Below the pieces are notes generated by a model. It searched no databases. It was given only the letters and a program-made list of their open reading frames with translations, and had not been told where the DNA came from. This document shows positions 3,490 through 51,194 of a stretch of DNA of 64,000 nucleotides, in pieces. Origin of the DNA: an uncultured Cellulosilyticum sp. (lineage in GTDB: Bacteria; Bacillota; Clostridia; Lachnospirales; Cellulosilyticaceae); assembly GCA_934725855.1 (NCBI GenBank), contig CAKVCL010000014.1, positions 21,100 to 85,099 on the forward strand, written 5' to 3'. Position numbers and translations under genes: made by a program. Position 1 is the first letter of the stretch, and the number at the start of each line of letters is the position of its first letter.

Positions 3490-4452
3490 CTATTTTTGTA
3501 CTAAGTGAATGGCAAATCCGCCTACTTCTTCTTCTAAATAAATCGCTTTTAATTTGCCTTTAGCATCATATTTAGCTGATTCTTCATTGAATTTATGACC
3601 TTTTGCTTTTAAGTAAGCTACTGCTCTATCTATGTAGTTTGTTTTGTAAGCAATATGTCCTTTTGTTCCAAGGTATGGTGTTTTCATAACTTCTACTCCT
3701 GTACCAGCAAAAATTGAACTATTACCTACTTTTACTGATGTATTAAATAATCCGTCGAAACCAGCAGCAATTTCTTCGGCTGCTGCATTAGATTCGGCAT
3801 TAATTCCTACGTGTGCCAACTCAAATCCTAACATTTGAGTGACAGCTTCTTTTGTTTTTGCTGTAATGGCTTCAAAATCACCAGCTGCTACTAATTTAGC
3901 ATCTACCATCCAGCTGCCACCGCAAGCAATAATTTTATCAAATGATAAATAGTCATTTAAATTACCTGCATTGATTCCACCAGTAGGCATAAATTTCATT
4001 TGTGTATATGGACCAGCCATAGATTTAATTAATTTAATACCGCCGATTGCTTCAGCAGGGAAGATTTTTACTACCTTTAAGCCAAATTCAATTGCTTGTT
4101 CAATATCTGAAGGATTAGCACAACCTGGTGTTACAGAAATTCCTTTTTCTACACAGTATTTTACTACTTTAGAATTAAGTCCAGGACTTACAATAAATTT
4201 AGCACCTGCTTCTACAGCTGCATCCACTTGCTCAGTTGTAAGAACTGTCCCTGCTCCAACTAACATTTCTGGGAATTCTTTTGTCATGATGCTAATGGCT
4301 TCTTTTGCACAAGCTGTTCTAAAAGTTACTTCTGCAACTGGAAGTCCTCCATCACATAATGCTTTTGCAAGAGGCCTAGCATCCTCAATTTTATTTATAA
4401 CTACAACTGGTACAATGCCGTACGCACCAATTTTTTCGAGTACATCACCCAT
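3490..4452 (-). CDS. eda: KDPG/KHG aldolase fused to a VOC-like C-terminal domain
   Basis: Residues 1-205 are a class I KDPG/4-hydroxy-2-oxoglutarate aldolase. They carry the catalytic Glu in PVAEVTFRT, the GAGTVLT strand and the Schiff-base Lys in VVKIFPAEAIGG, followed by FMPTGGI. Residues 208-320 add an extra domain (ELAHVGINAES...GHIAYKTNYIDRAVAYL...FAIHLVQK) whose repeated beta-alpha-beta pattern resembles the vicinal-oxygen-chelate fold. Classical Eda is about 210 residues; longer forms with this tail occur in clostridia. The tail's role is unknown. First gene of the eda-kdgK operon; AGGAGG precedes the ATG. Confidence 0.88.
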   Translation of the reverse strand: MGDVLEKIGAYGIVPVVVINKIEDARPLAKALCDGGLPVAEVTFRTACAKEAISIMTKEFPEMLVGAGTVLTTEQVDAAVEAGAKFIVSPGLNSKVVKYCVEKGISVTPGCANPSDIEQAIEFGLKVVKIFPAEAIGGIKLIKSMAGPYTQMKFMPTGGINAGNLNDYLSFDKIIACGGSWMVDAKLVAAGDFEAITAKTKEAVTQMLGFELAHVGINAESNAAAEEIAAGFDGLFNTSVKVGNSSIFAGTGVEVMKTPYLGTKGHIAYKTNYIDRAVAYLKAKGHKFNEESAKYDAKGKLKAIYLEEEVGGFAIHLVQK

Positions 4453-14947: not shown

Positions 14948-16690
14948 TTACCCATTACATGAAACTGTACCTGTTTCACCATCTAAGTTAACAATTGCAC
15001 CTGATTTTAATATATCTGTTGCATATTGAGCGCCTAAAATAGCTGGCATATCCAAACTTAATGCGACTACGGCTGCATGTGAATTAATGCCATCCTGTTC
15101 AACGATTATGCCAGCAGCCTGTTTGAGCTCCTCCATAATATGATTGCTTGTTTCAGGCACAACTAAAATATCTCCTGCCTTAAAGTTTTTCTTTACCTCT
15201 TCTTCTGTTTTACAAACACAAAGGCTAGCACAAACGCTTTTCTTGATAATACCTTGCCCTTTAAGTAAAATATGACCTACTACATGAACCTTAATGATAT
15301 TCGTTGTGCCTGATATGCCAAGAGGCACCCCTGCTGTAATAACGGCTAATTCACCAGATTTTACATAACCTGCTTGTTCTGCTTCCGATACAGCATCTTC
15401 AAATAACTCATCCGTATTATTTTCTTCCTTAATCATAAGAGGAAGAACTCCCCAAGACAAATTCATCTGACGATACACATGCTCATAAGTCGTACAGCCA
15501 ATAATAGGGCACTCTGGTCGATACTTAGAAATCATTCTAGCTGTTTTACCTGATTTAGTCACCGTTACAATGGCTGCTGCATTTAAATCATGAGCTGTTG
15601 TACATGTGGCATGAGAAATGGCATTCGTTACATCCTTATTCTCATTAGCTTCTCTTTTCTTAAAGGCTGCTTTATAATCAATATCTGCCTCTGCACTTCC
15701 TGCGATTTTAACCATTGTCATTAAGGCTTCCACTGGATATTTACCAGCTGCTGTTTCACCAGAAAGCATAATCGCACTTGTGCCATCATATATAGCATTT
15801 GCAACATCCGTCGCTTCCGCCCTTGTTGGTCTTGGATTTTTCATCATAGAATCCAGCATCTGCGTCGCCGTAATCACCTGTTTTCCTGCATTGTAAACCT
15901 TCTTTATAATCATCTTTTGAATAACGGGAACCTCTTGAATAGGAATCTCAACGCCCATATCCCCACGCGCCACCATAATGCCATCTGATACCCTAATAAT
16001 CTCATCTATATTGCGAACACCTTGCATATTTTCAATCTTAGCAATAATGTTCATTGTATTGCAGTTATACTCACTTAGAATCTTTCTAATCTCTAAAATA
16101 TCCTCAGCACACCTTGTAAAAGAAGCCGCAATAAAATCAAAACCTTGCTCAATACCAAAAATAATATCCTGCCTGTCCTTCTCACTAATAAAAGGCATTG
16201 ACAGCTGTACATTAGGAACATTTACACCCTTCATCTGAGAGATTAGTCCCCCATTTTGAACCAAACAAATGATATCTGTATCCGTTAAACGCATGACTTT
16301 TAATTCAATCAACCCATCATCAATTAAAATCTTATCCCCTACTGATACATCTTTGATTAAATTCTTATAAGAAATAGAAACACACTGATTATCTCCTATA
16401 ATCTCTCTAGTGGTTAATACAAACTCTTGCCCCTCTTCAATCATAATTGGATTTTCCTTTAGCTTTCCAATCCGAATCTCAGGTCCCTTAGTATCTAATA
16501 GTGTAGCAATCGGCAAATGAAGCTCCTCTCGAAAACGCTTCACACGCTCCATATTTCTCTCATGCTGTTTATAATCTCCATGTGAAAAATTAAACCGAGT
16601 TACATTCATCCCCTCAATCATAAGACGTTTTAAAACCTGATCATCATCTGTAGCTGGTCCTAATGTGCAAATAATCTTTGTTTTATTCAT
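14948..16690 (-). CDS. pyk: Pyruvate kinase with C-terminal PEP-utiliser-like domain
   Basis: Catalyses PEP + ADP to pyruvate + ATP at the end of glycolysis. Landmarks: TKIICTLGPATDD at the N-terminus, LDTKGPEIRIG, the active-site Lys in NIIAKIENMQG, VARGDMGVEIP, and MLDSMMKNPRPTRAEATDVAN, which binds PEP and metal. The enzyme is 580 residues rather than about 470. Residues 490-580 form the extra domain typical of Bacillus/Clostridium enzymes, with INSHAAVVALSLDMPAI resembling the phospho-His domain of PEP-utilising enzymes. It is monocistronic. Confidence 0.95.
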   Translation of the reverse strand: MNKTKIICTLGPATDDDQVLKRLMIEGMNVTRFNFSHGDYKQHERNMERVKRFREELHLPIATLLDTKGPEIRIGKLKENPIMIEEGQEFVLTTREIIGDNQCVSISYKNLIKDVSVGDKILIDDGLIELKVMRLTDTDIICLVQNGGLISQMKGVNVPNVQLSMPFISEKDRQDIIFGIEQGFDFIAASFTRCAEDILEIRKILSEYNCNTMNIIAKIENMQGVRNIDEIIRVSDGIMVARGDMGVEIPIQEVPVIQKMIIKKVYNAGKQVITATQMLDSMMKNPRPTRAEATDVANAIYDGTSAIMLSGETAAGKYPVEALMTMVKIAGSAEADIDYKAAFKKREANENKDVTNAISHATCTTAHDLNAAAIVTVTKSGKTARMISKYRPECPIIGCTTYEHVYRQMNLSWGVLPLMIKEENNTDELFEDAVSEAEQAGYVKSGELAVITAGVPLGISGTTNIIKVHVVGHILLKGQGIIKKSVCASLCVCKTEEEVKKNFKAGDILVVPETSNHIMEELKQAAGIIVEQDGINSHAAVVALSLDMPAILGAQYATDILKSGAIVNLDGETGTVSCNG

Positions 16691-37555: not shown

Positions 37556-38089
37556 GGCTATAATCTTTTAGACCATGCTATAGCTGTAGCAGAAAAAAAG
37601 GGTTATGAAGTCCATTTCATTGATTTGTATGAGCAAAATATTGCTTATTGTAAAGGCTGTATGCGTTGTAAAACTCTACGTTCTTGCTATTTGCAGGATG
37701 ATATTAAACCCATTGAAAAGCTTCTTAAAACATGTGACCTAACGATTATGGCAGCTCCTACTTACTTTGCCAATATTCCAGCCCCTGCCAAAAATCTATT
37801 TGACAGACTTGTTGGTGTTATTATGGATGATAACGCTAACGGCTTTCCAAAACCTTTACTTTCAAAATCACACCACTACTTACTCCTCACTACTTGCAAT
37901 ACCCCTTTTCCATTTAACCTAATTGCTGGTCAAAGCACTGGCTGCCTACATGCTATGAAAGAATTCTTTAACATTTCTGGTATGAAATCTCTTGGCAGTG
38001 TTACTTTTGCTGGCACACGTAATAAAACAAGCGTTCCTACTTCTGTTTTAAATAAAATTGAAAGGAAAATTCCAAATACAACCCCTTAA
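37556..38089 (+). pseudogene. NADPH-dependent FMN reductase-like flavoprotein, N-terminally truncated
   Basis: An open frame from 37556 (after a stop at 37550-37552) reads LGYNLLDHAIAVAEKKGYEV and on through IAYCKGCMRCK, MAAPTYFANIPAPAKNLFDRL and TTCNTPFPFN. This fits the family of multimeric flavodoxin-like iron-sulfur flavoproteins. The first strand and FMN-phosphate loop (usually a GSPRKNGNT-like motif) are missing, replaced by helD promoter DNA. The only candidate start inside, TTG at 37625, lacks an SD. It is therefore judged a 5'-deleted pseudogene. The cysteines are intact, so loss may be recent. Confidence 0.75.
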
Positions 38090-38139: not shown

Positions 38140-38189
38140 AAAGGCAAGGGATTCATTTCTAATAAGTGAAATGAATCTCTTGCCTCTTT
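38140..38189. terminator. Terminator at the end of the B12-uptake operon
   Basis: AAAGGCAAGGGATTCATTTC (38140-38159) pairs with 38168-38189 with one or two mismatches. It ends six bases after the stop of the SLH gene and can also close the convergent flavoprotein remnant. Confidence 0.82.
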
Positions 38190-38194
38190 TAGCT

Positions 38195-41100
38195 TTATGC
38201 TGCTTGATTTAATTTGTTTTTTATTCTAAGTAATGTGATAGCCGCTACTTCTCTTGATACCTTTTGTTTTGGCTTAAATGTGCCATCTTCATAGCCTTTA
38301 AACACTTCTTGGGCTGCTATTTCCTTGATAGCATTTCTAGCCCAAGGTGAAACAGTATTTTCATCTTTAAAGCTTATCGCACTCTCAGTTGTTTCGGTAT
38401 TTAAAACTCTGGCAAGGATAACGGCTACTTGCTCTCTACTAATTTGTGTCATTGGTTCAAAGGTTTCTGCACTTACACCATTTACTAAACCATTACTATA
38501 TGCCTTTAAAACATCTTCTGCATACCAAGCAGAACTTTCTACATCTTTAAATTTATTTTCACTTTCGCCTACTTGTAAATCATTGAGTATTCTAATAAGC
38601 ATAGATGTAAACTCTGCTCTTGATACTTCTTGTTTAGGTTTTATAGTGTCTCCATAACCAGAGATAATTCCCTCTGCTATAGCCTGTGTAAACTCTTCTT
38701 TAGCCCAGTTAGAGATTTGGTCTGCATCTTGATATTTAGACAAATCCACTACTTGTTTACTCTCAGTAGATGGCTTTGTGATATCTGTTTCTTTATTTTC
38801 TATTGCCTTAACCGCCACCTTACTTAGTGTATATAATGAAGGTTTACCCGCTTTAAAGTTTTGATAACTTACAAGTGCCATAAGTGCCTGTTCGGTTGCC
38901 ATACTATTAGCACCACCTGATTTTGTATGAGCGAAACTTTTGCCTTCTACTTGATATTCCATTAAAAGGTCTAATAATGATTTACCCTCTTTGATAAATC
39001 TTGTATCTGTAGCTGGGTCAATGCCAAGGCTTGTTAGCGCAATGATCACTTGTGAAAGGCTTTCACTATTTTCTTGTCCATAAGCTGAGAAATGACCGTT
39101 TGCATTTTGTATGTTTTGTAAATACTTTAATGCTTTCTCAATCACTGGCTTAATCTCTTTTTCTTCCTTATATGGTGCTAATGCTTGAAGCGCCATAGCT
39201 GTTATATCTACATCACTAGAATCTCCTGTAATAAGTGGGAAGCCTCCACCTGAATTTTGTGCTTTAATGATTTCTTGTTTAATTTTTTCTCTAGTCCATT
39301 TTGCATCAACTGGTATTTCGTATTGTCTACTGTCTAAGGCGATTAGAGCAAAAATAACCCCATTATTGCCTTGCTTACCTATTTCATCAGAATTATATAG
39401 CTTTTCAATAAGGTTATAGCCTTCAATATCTCTACAATCTTCACCCAAGCTACCTAGTACCAGAATAGTTTTTTCTAAATCTGTGATCTTTCTAAAATCA
39501 CCTGAATTATTTTTAACCTTGCTCACAAGGGATTGCTTATAAGTACTTGCTAATTGTTCACCACTTCTTGCTAAACCAAATACTTGCCATTCAGATAACT
39601 CTGTATTACTCTTTAACTCTTTTTGTAGGTTCTCTAATGCAACATTTGGTGCCATGGCATTTGTTTTATTCTCTTTATCCCCTTGAACTACAAATGATGC
39701 CCCTATATCTTTTCCAAGATTAGTTGTATATTGCCACCTTACTGTATCATTAGGATTCAGTCTGTATTCACCTACTGAACAGTTGATAAATGTCCCATTG
39801 ACACTAATCATCCATCCACTGCCTGTACCATGTTGCTTTTCTCTAAGTCCTTCAATCCCAGATACATAAGATGAACTACCTTCTATATTAAGTCCTGTTC
39901 TAACTAACGCATCATATACGGTATCTCCATTTTGATAATCTACGGTTCCATTAAATAAATCACTGAGTCCTATGGTTTTTCTTTCAATGATTACATTAAC
40001 CTTAGGACTTGGTCTATCTGGGTTTTCTGCGCCACTATTTTCTTTTGCCTGATAAATCATAAATTCAGTAAAGTGGTTCGTCTCTATAATTAAATCGCCT
40101 TCTAAATCATAACAAACCTCATTATATTTCGACTTATCAGCATCTGCTTTAAGTTTTGTAATCGCATAAACCTTTCCCGCATAATCTTTATAAGCTACAT
40201 GATTACCTGCTGCCTTTTTGAAGATCAATCTTACTTTTCGATTAAATTGAATGCTTTTATCTGGACTTCCTACTTGAATGTGACTAATAATCTTTGTAAC
40301 ATTTTGGTTTGCTAATAATTTTTGGATTTCAGCTGAAATATTTTCATTCTCTTTATTATCCTTAATAGACACAGGTATATTAATAACCTTTGTATCCGCA
40401 GTTTTCAGACCTGTCCCCTTTGAGATAAGCATTTCAAAAGTATTACTTTTGGTATGGATCGCTGGTAAGGCATCCTTGCATTGTTCAATATTGATGCTTG
40501 CCTGATCCTCTTCTTTTTCTTGATTAATTACAAGTGTTTCATTAATTTTGTCTTTTTCTAGGACAATAGGTTCTTTTGTATCTGCTGCATTATAATACTT
40601 AATTTTTTCTACAGGCTTAAAGTCCTTTATATCTGACATATTATACAAGCTTGATTGACCTTGTAAAAATCGCTTATAACTTACTAACGCATAGCCTGCT
40701 TGCTGTGTACTTGTAATAGACGGTTTTGATTCTTCTGTATGCTTAAATCCACCTGTTGTTTCATCATAGAATGTTAGAAGTCTTGTGAGCAAATTTCCCT
40801 CAGCTTTAATAAAGGCTGCTTCCTTGGCTGGATCTTTGCCTACACTTGTTAATGCACAGATAACTTGTGCCACACTTTCACTACAGTCAGCCCCCCAAGA
40901 CTCATAGCCTCCACTTGGTAATTGACATTCACTTAGCCAGCTTAATGCTTTATTAATGCTGTTTGCTACATTAGCTTGACTCTTATATGGTGCTAATGCT
41001 TGAATGGCCATTGCTGTTAGGTCTACATCGCCACTTCCTTTAGGTGAGTAGCTAAAACTACCATCTGTAAGTTGACTACTAACTAATAACTGGGTAATTT

Positions 41101-43465
41101 TTTCTCTAGTATAATTCGCATCCTCTGGTACATCATAAGGCTTAGTATCTAACGCAATCAATCCATAAATCAGTGCATTAATCCCTTGACCTTCTAATTT
41201 AGCATGATTATAAATATGTTCTACTAAATTATGTCCTACAACATTTGAGGCATCATAGCCTGCTGCTGTAAGCCCAATGGTCATTCTTTCATATTCTGTT
41301 ACTCTTGAAATTTGACTTTCTAATTGTTCTTTATTATAAGGAAATACATATTCTCCAATACTCTTTCCATAGATTTCAGGAATTTCTCTGCCACCTCTAG
41401 CTAAAACTAGCACATTCCAATCCCTTGCATCTCCTGACCCATACGCTTTTTCAAATGAAGTATTACTATAAATGTACTGATTAACTTTTTCTAAAGCTAG
41501 ATTAAGCTTATCACTAAGTGTCGTTTCTTTTTGAAGTACTTCCCAGACACTTACATCACTCATATTATAAAGGAAGCTTTTTCCCTCTAATAAACGCCCA
41601 TAAGCTACTAGCGCATAAGCCGCTTGTGGTGTTGCATAGTTAAAATCTACCGTTCCTTCGGCTGAATGTTTAAACCCACCATTTTCTTTATCATAGAACG
41701 TTAAAAGGTGTGTCATTAATGTGCCATTAGGTTTAATAAAAGCCGTTTCTTCTTCTGGATTTTTGCCTAAGCTCACTAACGCACAAATCACTTGTGAAAG
41801 GCTTTCACTCGATTCACTTCCCCATGATTCATAGCCCCCATTAGCTAATTGAATCTGACTTAGCCATGCTAGAGCTTTATCAACACACGCCTTTACATCT
41901 GTTCTATCATAATAAGGTGCTAAAGCCTCAATAGCCATTGCTGTTAAATCAATATCACTACCCCATTCGGGTGCGTAGCAGAAACTACCATCTGCTAATT
42001 GACTTTGCGTAATCCAACTTACGATATGATCTCTTGAATTAATGGCATCACTTGGTACATTATAAGGTTTAGTATCTAATGCCAACAATCCATAAATATA
42101 AGTATTAATGCCATCCTCCTTAAATTTAGGATTGTTATAAATAGATGCCACTAAATTGTGACCTGCAACACTAGAAGCGTCATAGCCTGCTGCAGTCAGT
42201 CCAATAACCATTCTTTCTACACTTGTTATAGAGCCTAAACCTTCTTCTAGTGCTTGTGTAGTTTCATATTTTGAAACGTATTTTCTTATTTGATCCCTAT
42301 AACTCTTAGGAACATTTTTTCCATCTCTAGCTAAAGTAAAGGCTTTCCAATCAATGCTGGTATTATCTTGGTAAGCCTTTGTAAAATCAGCTGACTGATT
42401 CATATAGCTTATAACACTATTTTTTACTGTTATAAATTCATTTTGGTCTAAAGCTGGCAACTCAGATGGTGCTTCGCTTGGTTGCAACTCAGCGATTCTA
42501 CTTTCTATATCGTTACTAACTTCATCTACTTTTGTTTGCTTAACATCTAACTGACTAACTGTTTCTACTGCTTTTGTATAGAGACTACTTAACGTATCAT
42601 CTGTTTTTAATGTGCTTTCATCATTAATCTTTGCCATTTGACGAAGTAGGTTTAGTTTATCTGCTTCTGTATAGACATGGCCTATTCCAGAACTCTCCAT
42701 CATCTTATCCATTTCTGCGTTACCTACATCGGCTCCCCAGCATATGGTATATCTTACTCTAACAACTTGTCCTGCTTCTAACTCTTGCTTGTCAATGTTT
42801 ACTGATGGTGCATGATGATCTACTGTATATGTCCAACCTGACATCATGTTATAGTCACCCTCTTTTAATTCATCTACAGGTGACTTTCTTGTATCTATAA
42901 AACCGAACTCATCCATTTCATATTCTTCATACATTTCATCTAATACTTCTTGGATGATGCTTGGCACATTGGCTTTCTTCTTTTCATCTGATACGGACTT
43001 TATATATCCTGTATCTAACCCTTTTATTGTAATCGGTTTCTTTTGTACTGAAGCTAATGGTGCAACTTGTCTAGCTGCAACCCTTAAATTTGCACTGGTC
43101 GTGACCTCCTCTTCATTTACAAGGGACAATACACTACTACTTGTTGCCTCATTTGTAACAGCTCTATTAGATGTAGCCATCAACGTAGCTACCCCATTTG
43201 TTTCTTCTAAGGAAGCATTATATTTATCTACGGCTTTCTTTATAGCATCTTGCGCTGTCATGCCCTCTTCATAAGGCACTTGCACAGGCTCCATAATAAA
43301 ACCTTGACCTAATGAAAACTTCTCTATATCTACTACTACTTGTGGTTGCTCATTTATCTGCATCCCCACTGTCTCTTGTGCCCAACTTACTTGTGGACAA
43401 AGAATAGATAATATCATACAAAAGCTTAACCATAAACTTGTTATTTTACGTCTTGTACTTTTCAT
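38195..43465 (-). CDS. SLH-anchored intrinsic-factor-like surface protein (DUF4430 + alpha/alpha-barrel repeats)
   Basis: A 1756-residue secreted protein. Order: signal peptide (about 1-29, ending PQVSWAQ); a DUF4430-type domain (about 50-265, SGWTYTVDHHAPSVN...RYTICWGADVG); two alpha/alpha-toroid blocks of the terpene-cyclase/prenyltransferase type (about 350-640 and 660-945, with DGSFCYAPEWGSDIDLTAMA and NGGYESWGSESSESLSQV); a beta-rich linker; a second DUF4430 (about 1130-1215, GSGWMISVNGTFINC, WQYTTNLGKDIG); a third toroid (about 1225-1510); and three SLH repeats (about 1560-1750, SRAEFTSMLIRIL). Toroid plus DUF4430-like domain is the architecture of animal intrinsic factor and transcobalamin. 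As last gene of a B12-riboswitch operon it probably captures cobalamin at the wall. One dispersed-motif copy encodes KGTGLK at 40406-40420. Confidence 0.85.
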   Translation of the reverse strand: MKSTRRKITSLWLSFCMILSILCPQVSWAQETVGMQINEQPQVVVDIEKFSLGQGFIMEPVQVPYEEGMTAQDAIKKAVDKYNASLEETNGVATLMATSNRAVTNEATSSSVLSLVNEEEVTTSANLRVAARQVAPLASVQKKPITIKGLDTGYIKSVSDEKKKANVPSIIQEVLDEMYEEYEMDEFGFIDTRKSPVDELKEGDYNMMSGWTYTVDHHAPSVNIDKQELEAGQVVRVRYTICWGADVGNAEMDKMMESSGIGHVYTEADKLNLLRQMAKINDESTLKTDDTLSSLYTKAVETVSQLDVKQTKVDEVSNDIESRIAELQPSEAPSELPALDQNEFITVKNSVISYMNQSADFTKAYQDNTSIDWKAFTLARDGKNVPKSYRDQIRKYVSKYETTQALEEGLGSITSVERMVIGLTAAGYDASSVAGHNLVASIYNNPKFKEDGINTYIYGLLALDTKPYNVPSDAINSRDHIVSWITQSQLADGSFCYAPEWGSDIDLTAMAIEALAPYYDRTDVKACVDKALAWLSQIQLANGGYESWGSESSESLSQVICALVSLGKNPEEETAFIKPNGTLMTHLLTFYDKENGGFKHSAEGTVDFNYATPQAAYALVAYGRLLEGKSFLYNMSDVSVWEVLQKETTLSDKLNLALEKVNQYIYSNTSFEKAYGSGDARDWNVLVLARGGREIPEIYGKSIGEYVFPYNKEQLESQISRVTEYERMTIGLTAAGYDASNVVGHNLVEHIYNHAKLEGQGINALIYGLIALDTKPYDVPEDANYTREKITQLLVSSQLTDGSFSYSPKGSGDVDLTAMAIQALAPYKSQANVANSINKALSWLSECQLPSGGYESWGADCSESVAQVICALTSVGKDPAKEAAFIKAEGNLLTRLLTFYDETTGGFKHTEESKPSITSTQQAGYALVSYKRFLQGQSSLYNMSDIKDFKPVEKIKYYNAADTKEPIVLEKDKINETLVINQEKEEDQASINIEQCKDALPAIHTKSNTFEMLISKGTGLKTADTKVINIPVSIKDNKENENISAEIQKLLANQNVTKIISHIQVGSPDKSIQFNRKVRLIFKKAAGNHVAYKDYAGKVYAITKLKADADKSKYNEVCYDLEGDLIIETNHFTEFMIYQAKENSGAENPDRPSPKVNVIIERKTIGLSDLFNGTVDYQNGDTVYDALVRTGLNIEGSSSYVSGIEGLREKQHGTGSGWMISVNGTFINCSVGEYRLNPNDTVRWQYTTNLGKDIGASFVVQGDKENKTNAMAPNVALENLQKELKSNTELSEWQVFGLARSGEQLASTYKQSLVSKVKNNSGDFRKITDLEKTILVLGSLGEDCRDIEGYNLIEKLYNSDEIGKQGNNGVIFALIALDSRQYEIPVDAKWTREKIKQEIIKAQNSGGGFPLITGDSSDVDITAMALQALAPYKEEKEIKPVIEKALKYLQNIQNANGHFSAYGQENSESLSQVIIALTSLGIDPATDTRFIKEGKSLLDLLMEYQVEGKSFAHTKSGGANSMATEQALMALVSYQNFKAGKPSLYTLSKVAVKAIENKETDITKPSTESKQVVDLSKYQDADQISNWAKEEFTQAIAEGIISGYGDTIKPKQEVSRAEFTSMLIRILNDLQVGESENKFKDVESSAWYAEDVLKAYSNGLVNGVSAETFEPMTQISREQVAVILARVLNTETTESAISFKDENTVSPWARNAIKEIAAQEVFKGYEDGTFKPKQKVSREVAAITLLRIKNKLNQAA

Positions 43466-43542
43466 CTCATTCTTCCTTTCTTTCTTTAATGATTGACTTC
43501 TTATTTAACGCATTTGTTTCTTGCTTATTATCACTTCTTTTA

Positions 43543-44259
43543 TTATTTATTCATCATAATGCCATATTTCTTTTTAACACGCTCTAACTTTTGAAGAATT
43601 GGATTCGTAAGAAACCACAAAAATATAACAGTTGCTAAGCTATGTATTAAATCAAACCAAAAGCCCGAAATATATGCGGCTATAAAAGCTTCCTTGGTTG
43701 GATTTTCTGTAAACATAATAACTGCACAGGGATTCATAATGCCACCGTAAATGAAAAACGTTGCTAATCCTCCAAAAACACATAAGCTTAGTCGATTTTT
43801 TCTTAAAACATGGCACTCTTCTAAAATTCCTGCTAAAAAGCCAATGCTTCCAAAAGCAATCATCTGCCACTGGGTCCATGGCCCTTGCCCAAAAAAGAAA
43901 TTTGATACAAATCCAGTCATTGCACCTACCACAAAGCCCATCTCGCTTCCTAGGCAAACGCCTGATAAAATCACAATCGCTACTACTGGTTTAAATTGAG
44001 GTAACATGAAAAAAGCTAATCTGCCTGCCACCGCTAAAGTAACCATGACTGTAATGACAACAATCTCTCTTGTTTGAGGTTTTCTTTTTTCAAAGGCACT
44101 AAAAAACACAGCTAACGTAAAGGTCATCATCACTAAACTTGCAATATAATAGCCTCTTTGTCCCTTATAAACCTTTTGCCAAATCAAACAAAACAGTACA
44201 AGTCCTATTAATGAAATAGATATTAAAGCTAATCGTTTACGCTGTCTATTCCAAGACAT
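43543..44259 (-). CDS. cbrT: ECF transporter substrate-binding S component, predicted cobalamin (CbrT-like)
   Basis: The 238-residue membrane protein has six or more predicted helices (ALISISLIGLVLFCLIW, YYIASLVMMTFTLAVFFSAF and so on). The S-component features VVITVMVTLAVAGRLAFFMLPQFKPV and GFVSNFFFGQGPWTQWQM are present, the latter a proline/aromatic loop typical of ECF S proteins. Ligand assignment to cobalamin or a corrinoid comes from the riboswitch and the DUF4430 partners, not from residues seen. It overlaps the ATPase gene by 31 bases and has GAGGAGG before its ATG. Confidence 0.78.
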   Translation of the reverse strand: MSWNRQRKRLALISISLIGLVLFCLIWQKVYKGQRGYYIASLVMMTFTLAVFFSAFEKRKPQTREIVVITVMVTLAVAGRLAFFMLPQFKPVVAIVILSGVCLGSEMGFVVGAMTGFVSNFFFGQGPWTQWQMIAFGSIGFLAGILEECHVLRKNRLSLCVFGGLATFFIYGGIMNPCAVIMFTENPTKEAFIAAYISGFWFDLIHSLATVIFLWFLTNPILQKLERVKKKYGIMMNK

Positions 44260-45959
44260 ACCCTTGTCACCTCCTCAGAGGTAACACACCCCTCAATAAT
44301 CCCCGTGCTCATCCTGTTTGCTGCTGTTGTGTAAAAACTATTGCCTAAGAAAAAGTGTTTTGTTTCCCCAGAACTAATGACGCTCCCGTCAAAAAACAAA
44401 GCACACTCATCACTATACTCAGCGCAGAAATCTAAGTCATGTGAAACCATTATAATGGTTATTCCATCGCTTGCTAATTTTCTAAAAAGCTTTCCTAATT
44501 TCATCTTAAAAGGTTCATCTAAACCTTTAGTCGGTTCATCTAGTAGTAAAACCTCTGGTCTAAGTAACAATATTTTAGCTAATGCCACACTTTGCATCTG
44601 TCCACCACTTAAATCATAAGGATGCATATCTAAAAGCGCTTCTAACTCTAGTTCACTTATGAGTTTTTTCAGTAATGTCTCATCCGATTTGTTACGCTCT
44701 TTGTTGTGGTTTTCTAATAACATTTCTCTTAATTCTTCACGAACCGTTGCCAATTCAAATAAATCTGTAGGGTTTTGAGGAAGCATCATGATACGACTTA
44801 CTTTTTCCTTCCACTGAGCTTTTCCACGATAAGGCTTATTAAGCCCTGCAATGATTGTAAGTGTCGTCGTTTTTCCTGTTCCATTGCCACCTACAATAGC
44901 GTGAATACGTCCTTTATGAAATGTATAGCTTACAGCCTTTAATGTATCTTCTGAATTTTTCTCATATCTAAAATAAACCTCTTTTAATTGTAGAAGATTG
45001 ATTGCTTCATTCTCTTTGGTTTTATTCTCTTTAAATTCATTCTTTCTGAAACCTTCTCCCCTTGTTTCTAGCATTTCACTAAGATTAGCTTTAGCATTCG
45101 CTGCTTCATGAGACATAGCTTGTTTTCTTAGCTTCCATTCTCTAAGCCAGCGGCGTCCTTCACCTACAGTAATCACATGGTTTTGTTTTCCACTTTCTAC
45201 TTCCCAAGCCACCTTAAAAGCTGTTGGCATTGCCCTAAAAAGTTCATGCGCACTTTGTGCAAGACCTGTCCCCACTTCCTCCACACTGCCACTTGCTAAT
45301 ATTTTTCCTTGTTCCATCACAACGAGCTTATCTGTCAGTGGCAGCACGTCTTCTAACCGATGCTCTGATAAGATGATTGTAATCCCAAGTTCTGTGTGAA
45401 TACGCCTTAGCATTTCAATAAAATTCTTAGCTGCTATTGGATCAAGCTGTGCTGTGGGTTCATCTAAAAGAATCACTTCAGGCTGCATCACCATAACCGC
45501 TGCAAGATTTAATAATTGCTTTTGCCCTCCTGAAAGTTCATGCACTGAGCGGTAAAACCAATGCGTGATTCCAAAGAAACTAGCCATTTCAGCTACTCTG
45601 AGCCTAATGGTCTGTGTATCATAGCCTAAGCTTTCTAATCCAAAAGCCAACTCATGCCATACTTTATCCGTTACAATTTGCTGCTCAGGATTTTGGAGCA
45701 CATAACCTAGTTTCATAACCTGTGTTCTTTGGTCCAACTGATTAATAGGCTCTCCCTTAAAGAAAATCCTTCCTTCTGAATGTCCATAAGGTGAAAGTAT
45801 GGGCTTTAATTGCCTCAGTAAGGTTGTCTTGCCGCATCCTGATTTGCCACAAATGGTTACAAAACTACCTTCCTCAATTTCTAAGTCAATCTGCTTTAAT
45901 ACATCTCGAGTCTGATCAGAGTATTTGAAGCTAAATTCTTCTATTTTAAATAATGCCAT
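44229..45959 (-). CDS. cbrU: ECF transporter energising ATPase, two fused ABC domains
   Basis: The 576-residue protein joins two EcfA-type ABC ATPases. Domain 1 has Walker A CGKSGCGKTTLL, signature LSGGQKQ and Walker B VILLDEPTAQLDP. Domain 2 has GGNGTGKTTTL, LSGGQMQ and LLLDEPTKGLDE. The interdomain linker (about 230-335) is Lys/Glu-rich, and before it VGTGLAQ is encoded by one dispersed-motif copy (45261-45273). A frame opens at 46001, but GGTGGAGG is eight bases before the ATG at 45957-45959, which is used. It overlaps the T-component gene by 19 bases. Confidence 0.88.
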   Translation of the reverse strand: MALFKIEEFSFKYSDQTRDVLKQIDLEIEEGSFVTICGKSGCGKTTLLRQLKPILSPYGHSEGRIFFKGEPINQLDQRTQVMKLGYVLQNPEQQIVTDKVWHELAFGLESLGYDTQTIRLRVAEMASFFGITHWFYRSVHELSGGQKQLLNLAAVMVMQPEVILLDEPTAQLDPIAAKNFIEMLRRIHTELGITIILSEHRLEDVLPLTDKLVVMEQGKILASGSVEEVGTGLAQSAHELFRAMPTAFKVAWEVESGKQNHVITVGEGRRWLREWKLRKQAMSHEAANAKANLSEMLETRGEGFRKNEFKENKTKENEAINLLQLKEVYFRYEKNSEDTLKAVSYTFHKGRIHAIVGGNGTGKTTTLTIIAGLNKPYRGKAQWKEKVSRIMMLPQNPTDLFELATVREELREMLLENHNKERNKSDETLLKKLISELELEALLDMHPYDLSGGQMQSVALAKILLLRPEVLLLDEPTKGLDEPFKMKLGKLFRKLASDGITIIMVSHDLDFCAEYSDECALFFDGSVISSGETKHFFLGNSFYTTAANRMSTGIIEGCVTSEEVTRVCLGIDSVND

Positions 45960-46819
45960 TTCAAGTCCTCCACCCCATGTAAAATCAAAGGTAACATACA
46001 AAGTACGCCATAGGCTAAGTAAATCATCCCACTCATAAACGTCATAGGTTGCATTTTAATACTAGGAAAATAACGGATATAAAACGCCTTATGGATTCCA
46101 CCTATCAAAATGACTCCAAAAAGAATTACCATCACGCCTAATACCAAAGCATCTCTTTTTTCAAATCGGTAAATTGAAAAATAGGTTCTTCCTTCTAGTC
46201 CATAACCTCTACTTTTCATAGAATCTGCTGTATCGATAGCATTTTCTAAAAGCCAAGTAATCATAATGGATAAAGTTTTCATTCCCCACTTTAATTTCTT
46301 TAGCAGATTTTTGCTCTCTGGCATATTACCGATGCCTTCTTGGGCACGTTTTACCTTTTCATATTGTCTTTTGAATAGTGGAATCATGCGAAGTGTCATA
46401 GAGAAAATCAACGCTAAAGTAGGCATTTTTCTTCCTATTAAATAAATCAGCTTATCTCCAGTCATAACCTGCCTATAGCATTTAAACCAAATGAGCACCT
46501 CTAATAAAAGGGCAGCCATTGCCCCACCATAATAGATGGATTCTAAGGTCAAAGGGTTATCCCCTAAATAAGTAATGATGGTTACTCCTTGATGATTAAA
46601 TAAGGGATTAATCACCCCAACTAGTAAGCATAGTAAACTGCAATACATCATCTCTTTTATCATTACCTTTATTCCTTGTAAATACGCTTCATAACAAAGT
46701 GCCCCAACAAGAGAAATGACTAAAAAAACAGGATGCATCATAAACATTCCTAGTCCAATAATGATTGCAAAGTAAACCAAACAGGTTATAGGATGATAGC
46801 TTGAAAAGGTATCTTTCAT
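45941..46819 (-). CDS. cbrV: ECF transporter transmembrane T component (CbiQ family)
   Basis: The 292-residue protein has the CbiQ-family order of N-terminal helices (YHPITCLVYFAIIIGLGMF), a long amphipathic coupling segment with MTLRMIPLFKRQYEKVKRAQ, and the Ala/Ser-Arg-Gly type motif SMKSRGYGLEGRT. That motif docks on the ATPases. It connects the S component to ATP hydrolysis. The ATG overlaps the stop of the lipoprotein gene (ATGA), with AGGTGA upstream. Confidence 0.86.
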   Translation of the reverse strand: MKDTFSSYHPITCLVYFAIIIGLGMFMMHPVFLVISLVGALCYEAYLQGIKVMIKEMMYCSLLCLLVGVINPLFNHQGVTIITYLGDNPLTLESIYYGGAMAALLLEVLIWFKCYRQVMTGDKLIYLIGRKMPTLALIFSMTLRMIPLFKRQYEKVKRAQEGIGNMPESKNLLKKLKWGMKTLSIMITWLLENAIDTADSMKSRGYGLEGRTYFSIYRFEKRDALVLGVMVILFGVILIGGIHKAFYIRYFPSIKMQPMTFMSGMIYLAYGVLCMLPLILHGVEDLKWHYLK

Positions 46820-47454
46820 TTGCTTTCACCTGATTGCGTAATAGATTCAGCCCCTACATCTTTTCCTAAATCACAAGTGTATACCCACTCTACAATATCC
46901 CCCGCCTTGAGCTTATAACTACTGCATCCATAGTTAGGAAATTTACCATTGACTTTATACATCCATCCACTTAACGGACCACAGTCAAATTCATAGATAT
47001 TATGAATTCCTTCTATATAATTGGTCTTATATTCTTTTGAACCTGTGTACTCCATATGGATCTTATGTGCTTTAGTTGCTTTAACTAACGCATCGAATAC
47101 CGTTTCCCCATCCTTATAAGCAATGTCTTCTTTTTCTAAAATTACACCATCTTCAGGCAGCACCTCTAACTTCTCTTTATCAAAGTCCTCTTTATGTGCC
47201 AAAATAGTATTGCACTGTATAGATAAAGAAATTGTTTTCCCTATCTTTTTGGAGCTGTCATTGACTTTAGTTACTTTCTTAATTTTATTTTTTACTTTTT
47301 GAATGGTTTTGCTTGCCGCAGCCGCTTGTTGCTTATATTCAACGGTTAAAGTTGCTGATGGAAAACTAGTATTTTGTTTTTGATTACACCCTCCTAAACT
47401 TAAAACCATTAATACTAAAATAACTAAACTAGCACTTTTCTTTTTTAACTGCAT
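46816..47454 (-). CDS. DUF4430 lipoprotein, first gene of the B12 operon
   Basis: A lipoprotein signal (VILVLMVLSLGGCNQ) precedes a Lys-rich segment and a DUF4430 domain with GETVFDALVKATKAHKI, LSGWMYKVNGKFPN and WVYTCDLGKDVGAES. This is the domain that in animal cobalamin carriers packs over the corrin. It probably presents cobalamin to the ECF S component from the membrane surface. Upstream in-frame ATGs (47484 and 47583) fall inside or before the riboswitch terminator. The ATG at 47452-47454 with AAGGAG upstream is therefore the start (212 residues). Confidence 0.8.
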   Translation of the reverse strand: MQLKKKSASLVILVLMVLSLGGCNQKQNTSFPSATLTVEYKQQAAAASKTIQKVKNKIKKVTKVNDSSKKIGKTISLSIQCNTILAHKEDFDKEKLEVLPEDGVILEKEDIAYKDGETVFDALVKATKAHKIHMEYTGSKEYKTNYIEGIHNIYEFDCGPLSGWMYKVNGKFPNYGCSSYKLKAGDIVEWVYTCDLGKDVGAESITQSGESK

Positions 47455-47486
47455 CACCTTTCTCTCCTTCCTGTTTTGGGACATAA

Positions 47487-47520
47487 AAAAATCTCCTTTA
47501 ATAAAATAAAGGAGATTTTT
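47487..47520 (-). terminator. Riboswitch-controlled terminator
   Basis: AAAAATCTCCTTTA (47487-47500) pairs perfectly with TAAAGGAGATTTTT (47507-47520), followed by a T run on the minus strand. Placed between the B12 aptamer and the first gene, it should form when cobalamin is bound. Confidence 0.82.
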
Positions 47521-47587
47521 AGACACTACAAATAAACCTAATTTGTAAATATCACACTCTCCTATTCCCAAGAACATGACCATAAAA

Positions 47588-47722
47588 TATAAGGCAGGTC
47601 TCCTGGCTCATGACTCATCCTTCAAAACGCCTTCTCACCCTAAGGCAATGGCTATTGTTTTGTCGTCATCAATTACAGTAGAGGAAGCTGCGAGGGATTT
47701 TCACCCTTCTTCCCTTTTAATG
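47588..47722 (-). ncRNA. Cobalamin riboswitch
   Basis: On the minus strand the aptamer shows GGTGAAAATCCCTCGCAG (complement of 47688-47705), CTACTGTA (complement of 47674-47681) and the B12 box AGCCAGGAGACCTGCCTT (complement of 47591-47608). These come in the canonical order of the AdoCbl-type cobalamin riboswitch. It controls the five-gene operon ending at 38195. Aptamer boundaries are approximate. Confidence 0.95.
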
Positions 47723-47939: not shown

Positions 47940-48290
47940 TTAAACAGCAAAGAAATTCTGCACGAGTATCATATAGACAATCGTTCCTCCTGCTATGCTA
48001 AGCAGGGTATTATCCTTCCATTTATGTAACACAATAATACTTAAAATGGCGATTCCAGTAGGCAAAACAGATGCTTTTCCTTCAAAAATCCCGCTAAAGC
48101 TAATGTTTCTTAAACAGTAAACTAAAAGAAGTCCTATCATAGCAAAAGGAAGGACATTTCCTAGATAACTAATATACTTTGGTATCCTTCTTCCTTCTGG
48201 AAATAAAATAAACGGAATACTTCTAGTCAAAAACGTTCCACATGCAATCACTAAAATCATGAGCAATGTTTCTCTTGCAGACAAGTACAT
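47940..48290 (-). CDS. azlD: AzlD-type branched-chain amino acid export subunit
   Basis: The 116-residue protein has four hydrophobic segments and the AzlD landmarks CGTFLTRSIPFILFPE and YLGNVLPFAMIGLLLVYCL. With AzlC it forms a branched-chain amino acid or azaleucine exporter. It overlaps azlC by 34 bases and has GAGGAGGG before the ATG. The partner is frameshifted near its N-terminus, so the state of the pair is uncertain. Confidence 0.88.
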   Translation of the reverse strand: MYLSARETLLMILVIACGTFLTRSIPFILFPEGRRIPKYISYLGNVLPFAMIGLLLVYCLRNISFSGIFEGKASVLPTGIAILSIIVLHKWKDNTLLSIAGGTIVYMILVQNFFAV

Positions 48291-48984
48291 CGATTTCCCT
48301 CCTCATCTAGTTTATTTCTACCTACAGTGAGTGCCACAAGCAAAATCATCATAGCTGGAATAATAAATTTTTCTGTTCCAAATACCCAGATACTAACTAT
48401 CGAAGCTGTAATTCCTATAAGTGCAGGCACCCTATTACTTTTTTGCTTCCAGCCATTTAAAAAAATCACCACAAACAGTGCAGTCAGTGCAAAGTCTATC
48501 CCTTCCGTATTAAAAGTGATTAGATTGCCTATAAGTCCACCTACAAAACTACTAATACACCAGGTTAAGTAATTAATGAGGGAAACAAAAAAATAAAACC
48601 ATCCCTCATCTACACTTTTAGGTGGCTCAGTACTACAATTGATTGAAAAAGTTTCATCACATAACCAGTAGATTAAGAAAAACTTGAGCTTTCCTTTTCC
48701 TCTATATTTTTTGAGCATCGATAATCCATAAAATAAGTGCCTTGCATTAACCATTAGTGCCATCACAAACGCTTGCACTGGATTAAATGTCGTACATAAA
48801 AGTCCAATGGCTACAAATTGCATACTGCCACAGTAAGCAATCATACTCATCAGAAGTGCCCAAATTGCACTGTAGCCATTGGTACTCATAAAACGCCATA
48901 GGCAATTCCTAAAAATACAAATCCAGCAATAACAGGAATGGTATGAGGAAATGCTGCTTTTAAGGCTTTGATCTGTTTCTCCAT
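48257..48984 (-). pseudogene. azlC: azlC with a frameshift after codon 32
   Basis: From ATG 48982-48984 (SD GGAGGAG), the frame reads MEKQIKALKAAFPHTIPVIA, then GFVFLGIAYGVL, and stops at TGA (48886-48888). The rest continues one base out of register from ATG 48887-48889: MSTNGYSAIWALLMSMIAYC with GSMQFVAI, NARHLFYG and LCDETFS. Joined, these make a normal 242-residue AzlC, so one base has been lost. The break leaves a perfect ATGA stop/start overlap, so the two parts might be made by coupled translation. A sequencing error is the other explanation. Confidence 0.85.
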
Positions 48985-49180
48985 TTCTTTCTCCTCCATA
49001 TATCGTTTTTTAGTTCATCACACTTTATTTGATTTTTTCAAATTATATCACTACAATATAAACCATACAATCCTTAAATTGTATGTCACACAGCTTCACT
49101 GCTTACTACTTAGTCCCCAAATCTTTACATAGCACTATGCTTTTAGAATATGAATTTAAAATTAGATAAGGAGTATGCTC

Positions 49181-50575
49181 ATGCCAATTAACTCTTTTGA
49201 GAATTATCCCATGAATTGGAAACCTAATATTAAACATTTAAAATCTCCAATTTATAAATCACTTGCCAAACAACTAGAAATGGATATTCAAAATGGTATC
49301 CTTCATCCCGGTGACTTGCTCCCACCTCAACGTGAACTCGCTGATTTTTTAGATCTCAATTTAAGTACCATTACAAAAGCTTTTAAACTTTGCTCTCAAA
49401 AAGGCCTTATCAGTTCTAATATTGGAAGAGGTACTTATGTTTCCTCCGATGTCCAAGTCAGTTCCACTTTACTAGACCCCCTAAGTGCTGCTGGACTGAT
49501 TGAGCTTGGTGCCATTTATCCTGACAGAACTTTTGACGATTGCATTCAAAGTATGTTTGCTAATTTTATAAAAAATAAAAAGCTTTCTCCTCTATTAGGC
49601 TATATGCCACCTAGCGGCACCCCTTATCAGAAAAATGTAGGCGTCAAATGGCTTAGCCGATGTCATGTTAAAAGCACAGCTGAAAATATTTTACTTTCAA
49701 ATGGTGGTCAAAATGCTCTATGTGCTATTTTATCTTCTCTTTTTCAACCAGGAGATAAAATTGGTACAGACCCACTTACCTTTTCAGGAATTAAAACATT
49801 AGCTAAAATGCTTCACATTCAGCTTATTCCTATTCCAAATGCTCATGACGATGAAGCTTTTTCACCAGAATATCTTGAGCAATATTGTAAAACAGAGGGT
49901 CTAAAAGGACTTTATGTTATTCCTGATTTTCAAAATCCTATGACCTACTGCATGAGTTTAAAAAGAAGAAAAGAACTAGCCGAAATCGCTAAAAACTATA
50001 AACTCATTATCATTGAAGACGCCATTAATAGTTTATTATCTTCCCAGCCCCCTACAGCAATTGTTTCTTTACTTCCTGATCAAACACTTTATATTTCTAG
50101 CCTTTCAAAGGTACTCTGTCCTGGGCTTCAAATTGCTTTTATTCATACACCCCTTCAATATAAGACTGCTTTAGAAACTGGTCTATATAATATTAACTTA
50201 ATGGTATCTCCTCTAAATGCTGAATTTGCCTCATCCTTAATACTATCTGATAATTGTGAGCATATCTTAGCTAAACGCCGGGAATTGACCATTGATAGAA
50301 ACCATCTAATAGACTCTATCTTAGGCAATTATCAGCTCTTAGGCTCATCTGAATGTAATTTCCGTTTACTTTCTTTACATAAAAATTGGACAGGTAAAGC
50401 ATTTGAACAAGCAGCTCATCAAGCTGGCGTTCAAGTCTATTGTGGTGAACGTTTTGCAGTAGGGAATAGCATTGTCCCTGCTGTTGCTAGACTGGCCATT
50501 ACTTCTCCTAAAACTATGCAAGACTTAGAAAAAGCACTTCATATTTTATGCACTCTACTACATACTAAAAATTAA
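49181..50575 (+). CDS. MocR/PdxR-type regulator (GntR HTH + aminotransferase-like domain)
   Basis: Residues about 20-85 are a GntR winged helix (IYKSLAKQLEMDIQNGILHPG and STITKAFKLCSQKGLISSNIGRGTYV). The rest is a fold-type I aminotransferase-like domain with ILLSNGGQNALCAIL, YVIPDFQNPM and the PLP-lysine region LYISSLSKVLCPGLQ. MocR proteins use PLP as cofactor to sense amines or amino acids. It is divergent from azlCD and probably controls it. Of ATGs at 49175 and 49181, the second has proper spacing from AAGGAG. Confidence 0.87.
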   Translation: MPINSFENYPMNWKPNIKHLKSPIYKSLAKQLEMDIQNGILHPGDLLPPQRELADFLDLNLSTITKAFKLCSQKGLISSNIGRGTYVSSDVQVSSTLLDPLSAAGLIELGAIYPDRTFDDCIQSMFANFIKNKKLSPLLGYMPPSGTPYQKNVGVKWLSRCHVKSTAENILLSNGGQNALCAILSSLFQPGDKIGTDPLTFSGIKTLAKMLHIQLIPIPNAHDDEAFSPEYLEQYCKTEGLKGLYVIPDFQNPMTYCMSLKRRKELAEIAKNYKLIIIEDAINSLLSSQPPTAIVSLLPDQTLYISSLSKVLCPGLQIAFIHTPLQYKTALETGLYNINLMVSPLNAEFASSLILSDNCEHILAKRRELTIDRNHLIDSILGNYQLLGSSECNFRLLSLHKNWTGKAFEQAAHQAGVQVYCGERFAVGNSIVPAVARLAITSPKTMQDLEKALHILCTLLHTKN

Positions 50576-50663: not shown

Positions 50664-51194
50664 ATGATTCTTATAAGATATCTTTTGCAATTACTACGTA
50701 AACTAAGTCTTGTAGCCTTTTTAGGACTTTTATCCTTTATGATATTTCATATGGTTATTGCGACATTAGGTACTGCCCTTGCTTGGTGGCACATAGATTC
50801 TACCCCTTATAGCGTTGCACTGAACACCTCTCTATACTATGTACTACCTCTAATCTTTTTACTTTTTATTTACTTCTTAACCTGTCAGCTTCTGCATCCT
50901 TCCAAAGAAAACTTTGAAGACCGCCTCCTTAATCAACCTGCTTCCTCTAAGAAATCTTCTCCCAGCAACAGACCTGTCCCCTCTAAGAAGTCTTCTTCTA
51001 ATAACAAACCTGTCCCTAACAAGAAAACTTCTTCCAATAGCAGACCTGTCCCTAATAAGAAAACTTCTTCCAATAGCAGACCTGTCCCCAATAAGAAAAC
51101 TTCTTCCGATAACAGACCTGTCCCTAACAAGAAAACTTCTTCCGATAACAGACCTGTCCCCAATAAGAAAGCAAAAAAAGAAAAGGGTAAGTGA
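50664..51194 (+). CDS. Two-helix membrane protein with a repeat-built RPVPNKK tail
   Basis: Residues 1-90 contain two membrane segments (VAFLGLLSFMIFHMVIATLG and YYVLPLIFLLFIYFLTCQLL) and match no family I recognise. From about residue 95 to the end, the protein is a Ser/Lys/Asn/Pro-rich tail of 12-residue units close to NRPVPNKKTSSN, ending KKAKKEKGK. The tail is basic, probably disordered, and cytoplasmic if the N-terminus is inside. The units are the dispersed DNA motif with 36-base period. Weak SD (TTAGGTGAT) before the ATG. Monocistronic. Confidence 0.6.
   Translation: MILIRYLLQLLRKLSLVAFLGLLSFMIFHMVIATLGTALAWWHIDSTPYSVALNTSLYYVLPLIFLLFIYFLTCQLLHPSKENFEDRLLNQPASSKKSSPSNRPVPSKKSSSNNKPVPNKKTSSNSRPVPNKKTSSNSRPVPNKKTSSDNRPVPNKKTSSDNRPVPNKKAKKEKGK
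50968..51172. repeat. 36-base tandem repeats in the membrane-protein gene
   Basis: Motif copies start at 50970, 51006, 51042, 51078, 51114 and 51150, so the period is exactly 36. The unit is AGACCTGTCCCTAAYAAGAA followed by AACTTCTTCCRATARC. Neighbouring units differ at one or two bases, showing recent duplication. The frame is preserved because 36 is divisible by three. Confidence 0.93.

Follow-up and report, generated by a model that had tools for sequence, protein, structure and literature searches.

A cobalamin riboswitch operon of an uncultured Cellulosilyticum sp. encodes a CbrT-type ECF importer and candidate wall and membrane proteins for corrinoid capture

How corrinoids pass across the thick wall of a Gram-positive bacterium to an energy-coupling factor (ECF) importer is an unsettled question, and B12 transport in gut bacteria has been termed an open problem (PMC6593275; this and the other papers given by PMC number are cited from passages of their text). 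The question is raised by a 64,000-nucleotide stretch of DNA from an uncultured Cellulosilyticum sp. (GenBank assembly GCA_934725855.1, contig CAKVCL010000014.1, positions 21,100 to 85,099), referred to below as the window, in which a five-gene minus-strand operon lies behind a cobalamin riboswitch (Table 1). The operon probably serves to scavenge cobalamin and related corrinoids, which would be captured at the wall, passed to a membrane lipoprotein and imported by an ECF transporter. Its gene content, the riboswitch with its hairpin, the folds of the encoded domains, the kinship with the cobalamin transporter CbrT and the conservation of the locus are established computationally. A sequence-only reading had listed a DUF4430 lipoprotein, a T component, a double ATPase, an S component and a giant protein with S-layer homology (SLH) repeats, and this list and its domain count are right; the place that it gave (38195..47722) is also borne out, apart from the end, as the riboswitch extends to 47783. 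With a riboswitch, a putative wall capture protein, a membrane beta domain and a CbrT-type importer on one transcript, the operon forms a compact test set.

The aptamer score exceeds the RF00174 gathering score of 31.5 bits, in agreement with the B12 riboswitch that had been placed at the head of the operon. The hairpin of the presumed expression platform has a folding energy of -16 kcal/mol (z -3.5; 1 of 200 shuffles is equally stable) and is likely the terminator of the riboswitch; it is not in the consensus terminator scan, probably because its U-run is absorbed by the stem. Control of the operon by adenosylcobalamin is predicted from the aptamer together with this terminator-like hairpin. 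The mechanical open reading frames (ORFs) of the four upstream genes overlap with their neighbours, the genes of the T component and the lipoprotein have 4 bases in common, and the gap between the S component gene and the wall protein gene is 77 bases. The mechanical ORF of the lipoprotein (47583-46816) has a start that overlaps the riboswitch; the true start is likely the ATG at 47454, which by eye opens the sequence MQLKKK...LSLGGC, and LSLGGC fits the lipobox pattern. The terminator-like hairpin at the operon end forms 10 pairs (38177-38150) on the minus strand, in a region with 16 terminator-like sites against 5.5 expected from shuffles.

The T component, double ATPase and S component of the importer proposed earlier are all found, and the S component is of the CbrT type. 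In the PDB, a profile built from 25 of 81 S components has 6fnp_A (CbrT) as its best S-component match (E 8.3e-14), followed by 4hzu_S at E 0.016; the Pfam label of the protein is ECF-ribofla_trS. The 6FNP structure is ECF-CbrT, which has been shown to transport cobalamin and cobinamide (PMC5997447), and the profile kinship suggests that the S component of the window imports cobalamin. The T component falls just below the Pfam CbiQ cut-off of 25 and matches EcfT chains, one such sequence occurring in 6FNP among other entries. The double ATPase reaches 316.2 bits with TIGR04520 (cut-off 315) and 320.2 bits with TIGR04521 (cut-off 330), and its true start probably lies slightly downstream of 46001. 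The S, EcfT and ATPase proteins are thus kin to those of ECF-CbrT from Lactobacillus delbrueckii (Santos et al. 2018, PMC5997447; 6FNP), whose ECF module is common to other S components (group II) and for which no surface binder is named in the passages cited. In the window, by contrast, the T component, two ATPase domains and the S component are encoded together, as in dedicated (group I) ECF transporters, and share one operon with the putative capture proteins.

The DUF4430 domain of the lipoprotein scores well above the curated PF14478 cut-off of 23.8 bits. In its predicted model, a helix (58-68) is followed by strands 73-78 and 83-89, so that the model contains the beta-hairpin insert after the helix that, on a beta-grasp fold, defines the transcobalamin-like soluble-ligand-binding beta-grasp (SLBB) domains (PMC1796856). 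The best fold matches of the model are the beta domains of intrinsic factor, haptocorrin and transcobalamin. Fold comparison was used for this kinship because the DUF4430 sequence search gave an E-value of 0.54 for its top PDB match, transcobalamin-2. Matches to DUF4430 occur in 2 of 14 control genomes. The earlier likening of DUF4430 to intrinsic factor and transcobalamin is therefore upheld for the predicted fold but not for the order of the domains, which is reversed in the window. The lipoprotein domain may bind cobalamin.

The domain limits of the wall protein were set by purpose-built DUF4430 and toroid profiles, which place all three toroids and both DUF4430 domains previously ascribed to it. 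The protein scores 80.4 bits with PF14478, Pfam reports two DUF4430 stretches, toroid families and, for the SLH anchor, three stretches, and the SLH region also matches the S-layer protein Sap (E 1.4e-7). When 97 toroids are placed in one tree, toroid 1 and toroid 2 of the window prove mutual nearest relatives (support 100/99) and sit beside a single Cellulosilyticum toroid, and toroid 3 groups with the other Cellulosilyticum toroid. The wall protein therefore grew via tandem duplication after the two lines separated, and the earlier count of three toroids stands with the correction that two of them are a tandem duplicate. Proteins of this type are widespread: of 7986 candidates scored, 1758 are related to the wall protein at E <= 0.001. 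Among the best 120 of these, the majority combine SLH, DUF4430 and toroid, and where an organism is named it is in most cases Paenibacillus or a relative of it.

The toroid had likewise been compared with intrinsic factor. Its fold is common to transcobalamin and haptocorrin, but many other toroids share it; intrinsic factor, haptocorrin and transcobalamin are absent from the 36 PDB matches of the toroid profile up to E 10. Intrinsic factor (identical to 2pmv) and pieces of haptocorrin and transcobalamin were aligned with 46 of the 97 bacterial toroids, and MAFFT in three modes and hhalign agree in placing bacterial hairpins 1-5 on animal hairpins 2-6, so that the register is displaced by roughly one hairpin. 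The conserved bacterial columns N95 (45/46), D145 (41/46) and Q199 (44/46) align with the intrinsic factor residues D153, D204 and Q252, reportedly ligand contacts described by Mathews in 2007. In the same shifted register, the column T55, which is threonine in 46/46 rows, aligns with the TNYYQ motif of haptocorrin, said to bond the corrin ring (PMC4350170). This correspondence to corrin-contact residues is treated as a lead only, because the hhalign probability is just 23-63%, and the internal repeats of the toroid make register errors easy. A circular permutation was considered and is not claimed, because doubling the bacterial profile did not raise the score (36.5 vs 36.7).

The likeness to intrinsic factor, transcobalamin and haptocorrin thus consists of the predicted beta-domain fold of the lipoprotein and the toroid fold of the wall protein. 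The animal carriers are single soluble chains with one toroid and then one beta domain, whereas in the window DUF4430 precedes the toroid, several copies are present, wall and membrane anchors and a direct importer accompany them, and the toroid sequence relation is marginal. The order D-o-o-D-o (D, DUF4430; o, toroid) with an SLH anchor differs from the layout of the intrinsic factor family, and the wall protein is not classed as an intrinsic factor, though it may work alike.

Related loci were fetched via the S component (best 80 of 428 relatives kept), and gene content was counted in the 61 of these 80 that extend 7 kb or more beyond the S gene on its upstream side, wall genes being placed by their end and two near-copies (L014 and L015, first 5000 bases identical) both being counted. 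The T component and the ATPase are kept in 61 of 61 loci, in line with the conservation that had been proposed as a check, and a small DUF4430 protein occurs in 58, a toroid anywhere in the locus in 56, an SLH protein with toroid or DUF4430 in 51 and an SLH protein with both in 30. No SLH wall protein with toroid or DUF4430 is detected in ten of the 61 (L026, L031, L039, L041, L042, L043, L049, L059, L060 and L068), three of which (L043, L049 and L060) additionally lack the small DUF4430 protein. A lipobox-like start is present in 21 of 65 small DUF4430 proteins (loose pattern, window included); those without it mostly have one N-terminal hydrophobic stretch, as judged by eye. Two contigs titled as archaeal metagenome-assembled genomes (L031 and L032; Bathycorpusculum, Nitrososphaerota) carry the same S, T, ATPase and DUF4430 set, for which a binning error is possible.

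A cobalamin or AdoCbl riboswitch lies upstream of the operon in 18 of the 23 loci (from the 80) that were scanned with Rfam. A strict pattern of the B12-box consensus was positive in 16 of the 80 loci; its absence means little, because 11 of 16 loci that lack the box have a riboswitch according to Rfam, as have 7 of 7 box-positive loci tested. Among the 23 loci, no riboswitch above the cut-off was found in L034, L036, L054, L071 and L074. In L054 and L074 fewer than 220 bases precede the first gene of the operon, and Rfam applied permissively to L034, L036 and L071 revealed no other riboswitch class and a sub-threshold cobalamin riboswitch match in L034 (11010-11268, 29.2 bits). The wall gene is the first behind the riboswitch in L008, L021, L044, L013 and L018. 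Additionally, L002 has a toroid/DUF4430/SLH gene on the opposite strand with its own cobalamin riboswitch at 16097-16282 (-), and L017 has tandem cobalamin riboswitches (3555-3755 and 4099-4284) ahead of a toroid-SLH gene.

Hosts of the operon class predicted in 2007 (see below) would be short of key genes for B12 biosynthesis. A need for B12 was considered in a related Cellulosilyticum genome (G001), which has two strong and one weak match to B12-binding domains and three cobalamin riboswitches, one of them, by eye, ahead of a BtuF-like gene. CbiC has no match in this one draft genome and matches in 7 of 14 control genomes. For this one marker and one draft genome, the profile fits a B12 scavenger.

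In the proposed mechanism, scarce cobalamin would lead the riboswitch to permit transcription past the terminator. The SLH protein would display several toroid and DUF4430 domains in the wall layer, where corrinoids would be held between toroid and beta-grasp domain in the manner of intrinsic factor. The membrane-tethered lipoprotein, with its lone beta domain, would accept the ligand from the wall protein and pass it to the CbrT-like S component, and the T component and double ATPase would power the uptake. Ligand binding by the wall protein and the lipoprotein, the order of the hand-over and the switching-off by corrinoids are thus predictions of this scheme. Ligand exchange between separate halves is supported by human transcobalamin, whose alpha and beta domains, made apart, assemble only once cobalamin is added, and whose beta domain alone has been solved with cobalamin (PMC5599065).

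The relay had been thought undescribed, a claim that fails in its main point because Burroughs et al. (2007, PMC1796856) already gave the domains, the operon and the B12-scavenging reading. These authors identified the transcobalamin-like domain in bacteria, joined to an alpha/alpha toroid in both orders, noted that a second such protein often shares the operon with genes for a CbiO-like ATPase and a CbiQ-like membrane protein, and predicted B12 scavenging by these surface proteins. The window holds a secreted SLBB-plus-toroid protein, a second SLBB protein and CbiO- and CbiQ-like genes together, and the operon is an example of the class predicted in 2007, known but experimentally untried, and not wholly new. 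To the passages cited from that account, which is older than the 2018 CbrT work, the window adds three toroids per chain and the split between wall and membrane. The same paper derived the animal transcobalamin-type carriers from Gram-positive bacterial proteins, and binding, if true, would support this proposed origin of intrinsic factor and transcobalamin. Some of the related loci are from animal gut samples, judging by titles, and hosts and gut bacteria might therefore compete for B12 using proteins of one kind. Searches limited to open-licence papers found no text that describes such proteins as SLH-anchored or as controlled by a riboswitch, which is weak evidence, and the passages seen of papers on Dehalobacter corrinoid starvation and C. 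difficile riboswitches do not name such a system. The same idea of surface or periplasmic B12 capture followed by import is found in BtuG/BtuB/BtuFCD, which are not known to be related to the protein families of the window, BtuG and BtuB acting in an outer-membrane setting.

A genus-level search is less favourable to conservation: a match is present in 7 of 7 genomes near that of Cellulosilyticum, but it is long in G001 alone, G002 and G005 match the wall protein through SLH alone, and many of the listed matches are SLH stretches. The importer could take cobalamin while the giant SLH protein is mainly structural or adhesive and co-regulated by chance, as this bacterial group is rich in SLH proteins and toroids also match cyclases and transferases. 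This is unlikely, since SLH proteins that bear a toroid, DUF4430 or both are found again and again near the S component (51/61 loci), the wall gene directly follows the riboswitch in the five loci given above, and the opposite-strand wall gene of L002 carries a riboswitch of its own. That the toroids are enzymes of the terpene cyclase or prenyltransferase type is hardly credible, although squalene-hopene cyclases head the list when the toroid profile is searched by sequence (E 1.6e-15), and cyclases likewise give the toroid its best VIA matches. The cyclase acidic motif is DXDD, whereas this site reads D-x-D-[hydrophobic] in the toroid rows shown; zinc prenyltransferases differ from the toroids in a conserved cysteine, and no cysteine is invariant or near-invariant among the 46 toroids. 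The enzyme reading was rejected on these grounds and because the toroids are secreted, tandemly repeated and located beside a cobalamin importer.

It is also very improbable that the cargo of the importer is cobalt or a different vitamin, with merely indirect riboswitch control. The riboflavin-type Pfam name of the S component and the CbiQ-like T component would suit such a cargo, but among S components of known structure CbrT is the nearest, its E-value being lower than the next by about eleven orders of magnitude, and a Pfam scan matched none of the five operon proteins to a cobalt-type M or N subunit. More serious is the possibility that the surface proteins serve chiefly for other corrinoids (cobinamide, pseudo-cobalamin, breakdown products) in a haptocorrin-like manner, with cobalamin as one of several ligands; we lean against it, as the riboswitch belongs to the cobalamin family.

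Within the preferred scheme of wall capture, hand-over and ECF import, a bolder arrangement is somewhat doubtful and is offered tentatively: a split intrinsic factor, in which the SLH-anchored toroid and the membrane beta half would close round cobalamin in trans, the assembly carrying the ligand from wall to importer. In 50 of 58 loci, a toroid is encoded by the gene immediately preceding that of the small DUF4430 protein; 33 of these 50 genes have a toroid and no detected DUF4430, and 27 of the 33 have SLH repeats. Among eight genomes chosen from the 80, some of them drafts, at least three (G009, G010 and G011) contain no open frame with both toroid and DUF4430; G015 resembles them, but some of its frames adjoin and may be one gene. 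In the draft G010 there is a single toroid and a single DUF4430, each on a protein of its own; the G010 locus (L071) is among those with no riboswitch above the cut-off, and L003 of G011 has one. The toroid-only preceding genes and the genomes without a joint frame suggest a two-chain intrinsic factor that closes in trans. In the window, toroid and DUF4430 both occur in the wall protein, to which the lipoprotein would add another beta half in such an arrangement. In G004 (C16:59564-61310) and G007 (C90:11-1404), toroid and DUF4430 lie in separate short adjoining frames, which would fit a split.

Table 1. Features of the operon, with positions in the window
Feature	Position	Strand	Evidence or remark
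Cobalamin riboswitch aptamer (RF00174)	47783-47576	-	105.1 bits, E 2.9e-25, full model 1-189
Predicted intrinsic terminator hairpin, riboswitch expression platform	47520-47487	-	14 pairs then U-run
Membrane lipoprotein, one DUF4430 (transcobalamin beta-like) domain	47454-46816	-	PF14478 E 6.3e-21, 75.0 bits
ECF T component (EcfT/CbiQ-like)	46819-45941	-	CbiQ 23.1 bits; EcfT E 2.7e-6
Two fused ECF ATPases, one protein	46001-44229	-	TIGR04520, TIGR04521, two stretches each
S component, CbrT type (cobalamin)	44259-43543	-	Profile best match 6fnp_A
Secreted wall protein, 1756 aa	43465-38195	-	DUF4430, toroid, toroid, linker, DUF4430, toroid, three SLH
Wall protein DUF4430 domain 1, divergent	43003-42722	-	Residues 155-248; 22% identical to lipoprotein domain
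Alpha/alpha toroid 1	42415-41549	-	Residues 351-639
Alpha/alpha toroid 2	41485-40625	-	Residues 661-947; 54% identical to toroid 1
Wall protein DUF4430 domain 2	39958-39701	-	Residues 1170-1255
Alpha/alpha toroid 3	39646-38813	-	Residues 1274-1551
Three SLH repeats, wall anchor	38743-38216	-	Residues ~1575-1750; PF00395 E 1.3e-33, 115.1 bits
Terminator-like hairpin, operon end	38142-38185		18 pairs in plus-strand reading

The genes for the branched-chain amino acid transport proteins AzlC and AzlD (47940-48889) lie directly upstream of the operon on the same strand. Divergent from azlCD is a MocR-type regulator (49175-50575) with a GntR helix-turn-helix and an aminotransferase domain, and a small membrane-like protein is encoded at 50664-51194, the tail of which, by eye, consists of near-identical 12-residue lysine/serine/proline repeats. 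On the other side of the operon, a short flavodoxin/FMN-reductase-like ORF (37625-38089) begins inside the profile and may be a fragment.
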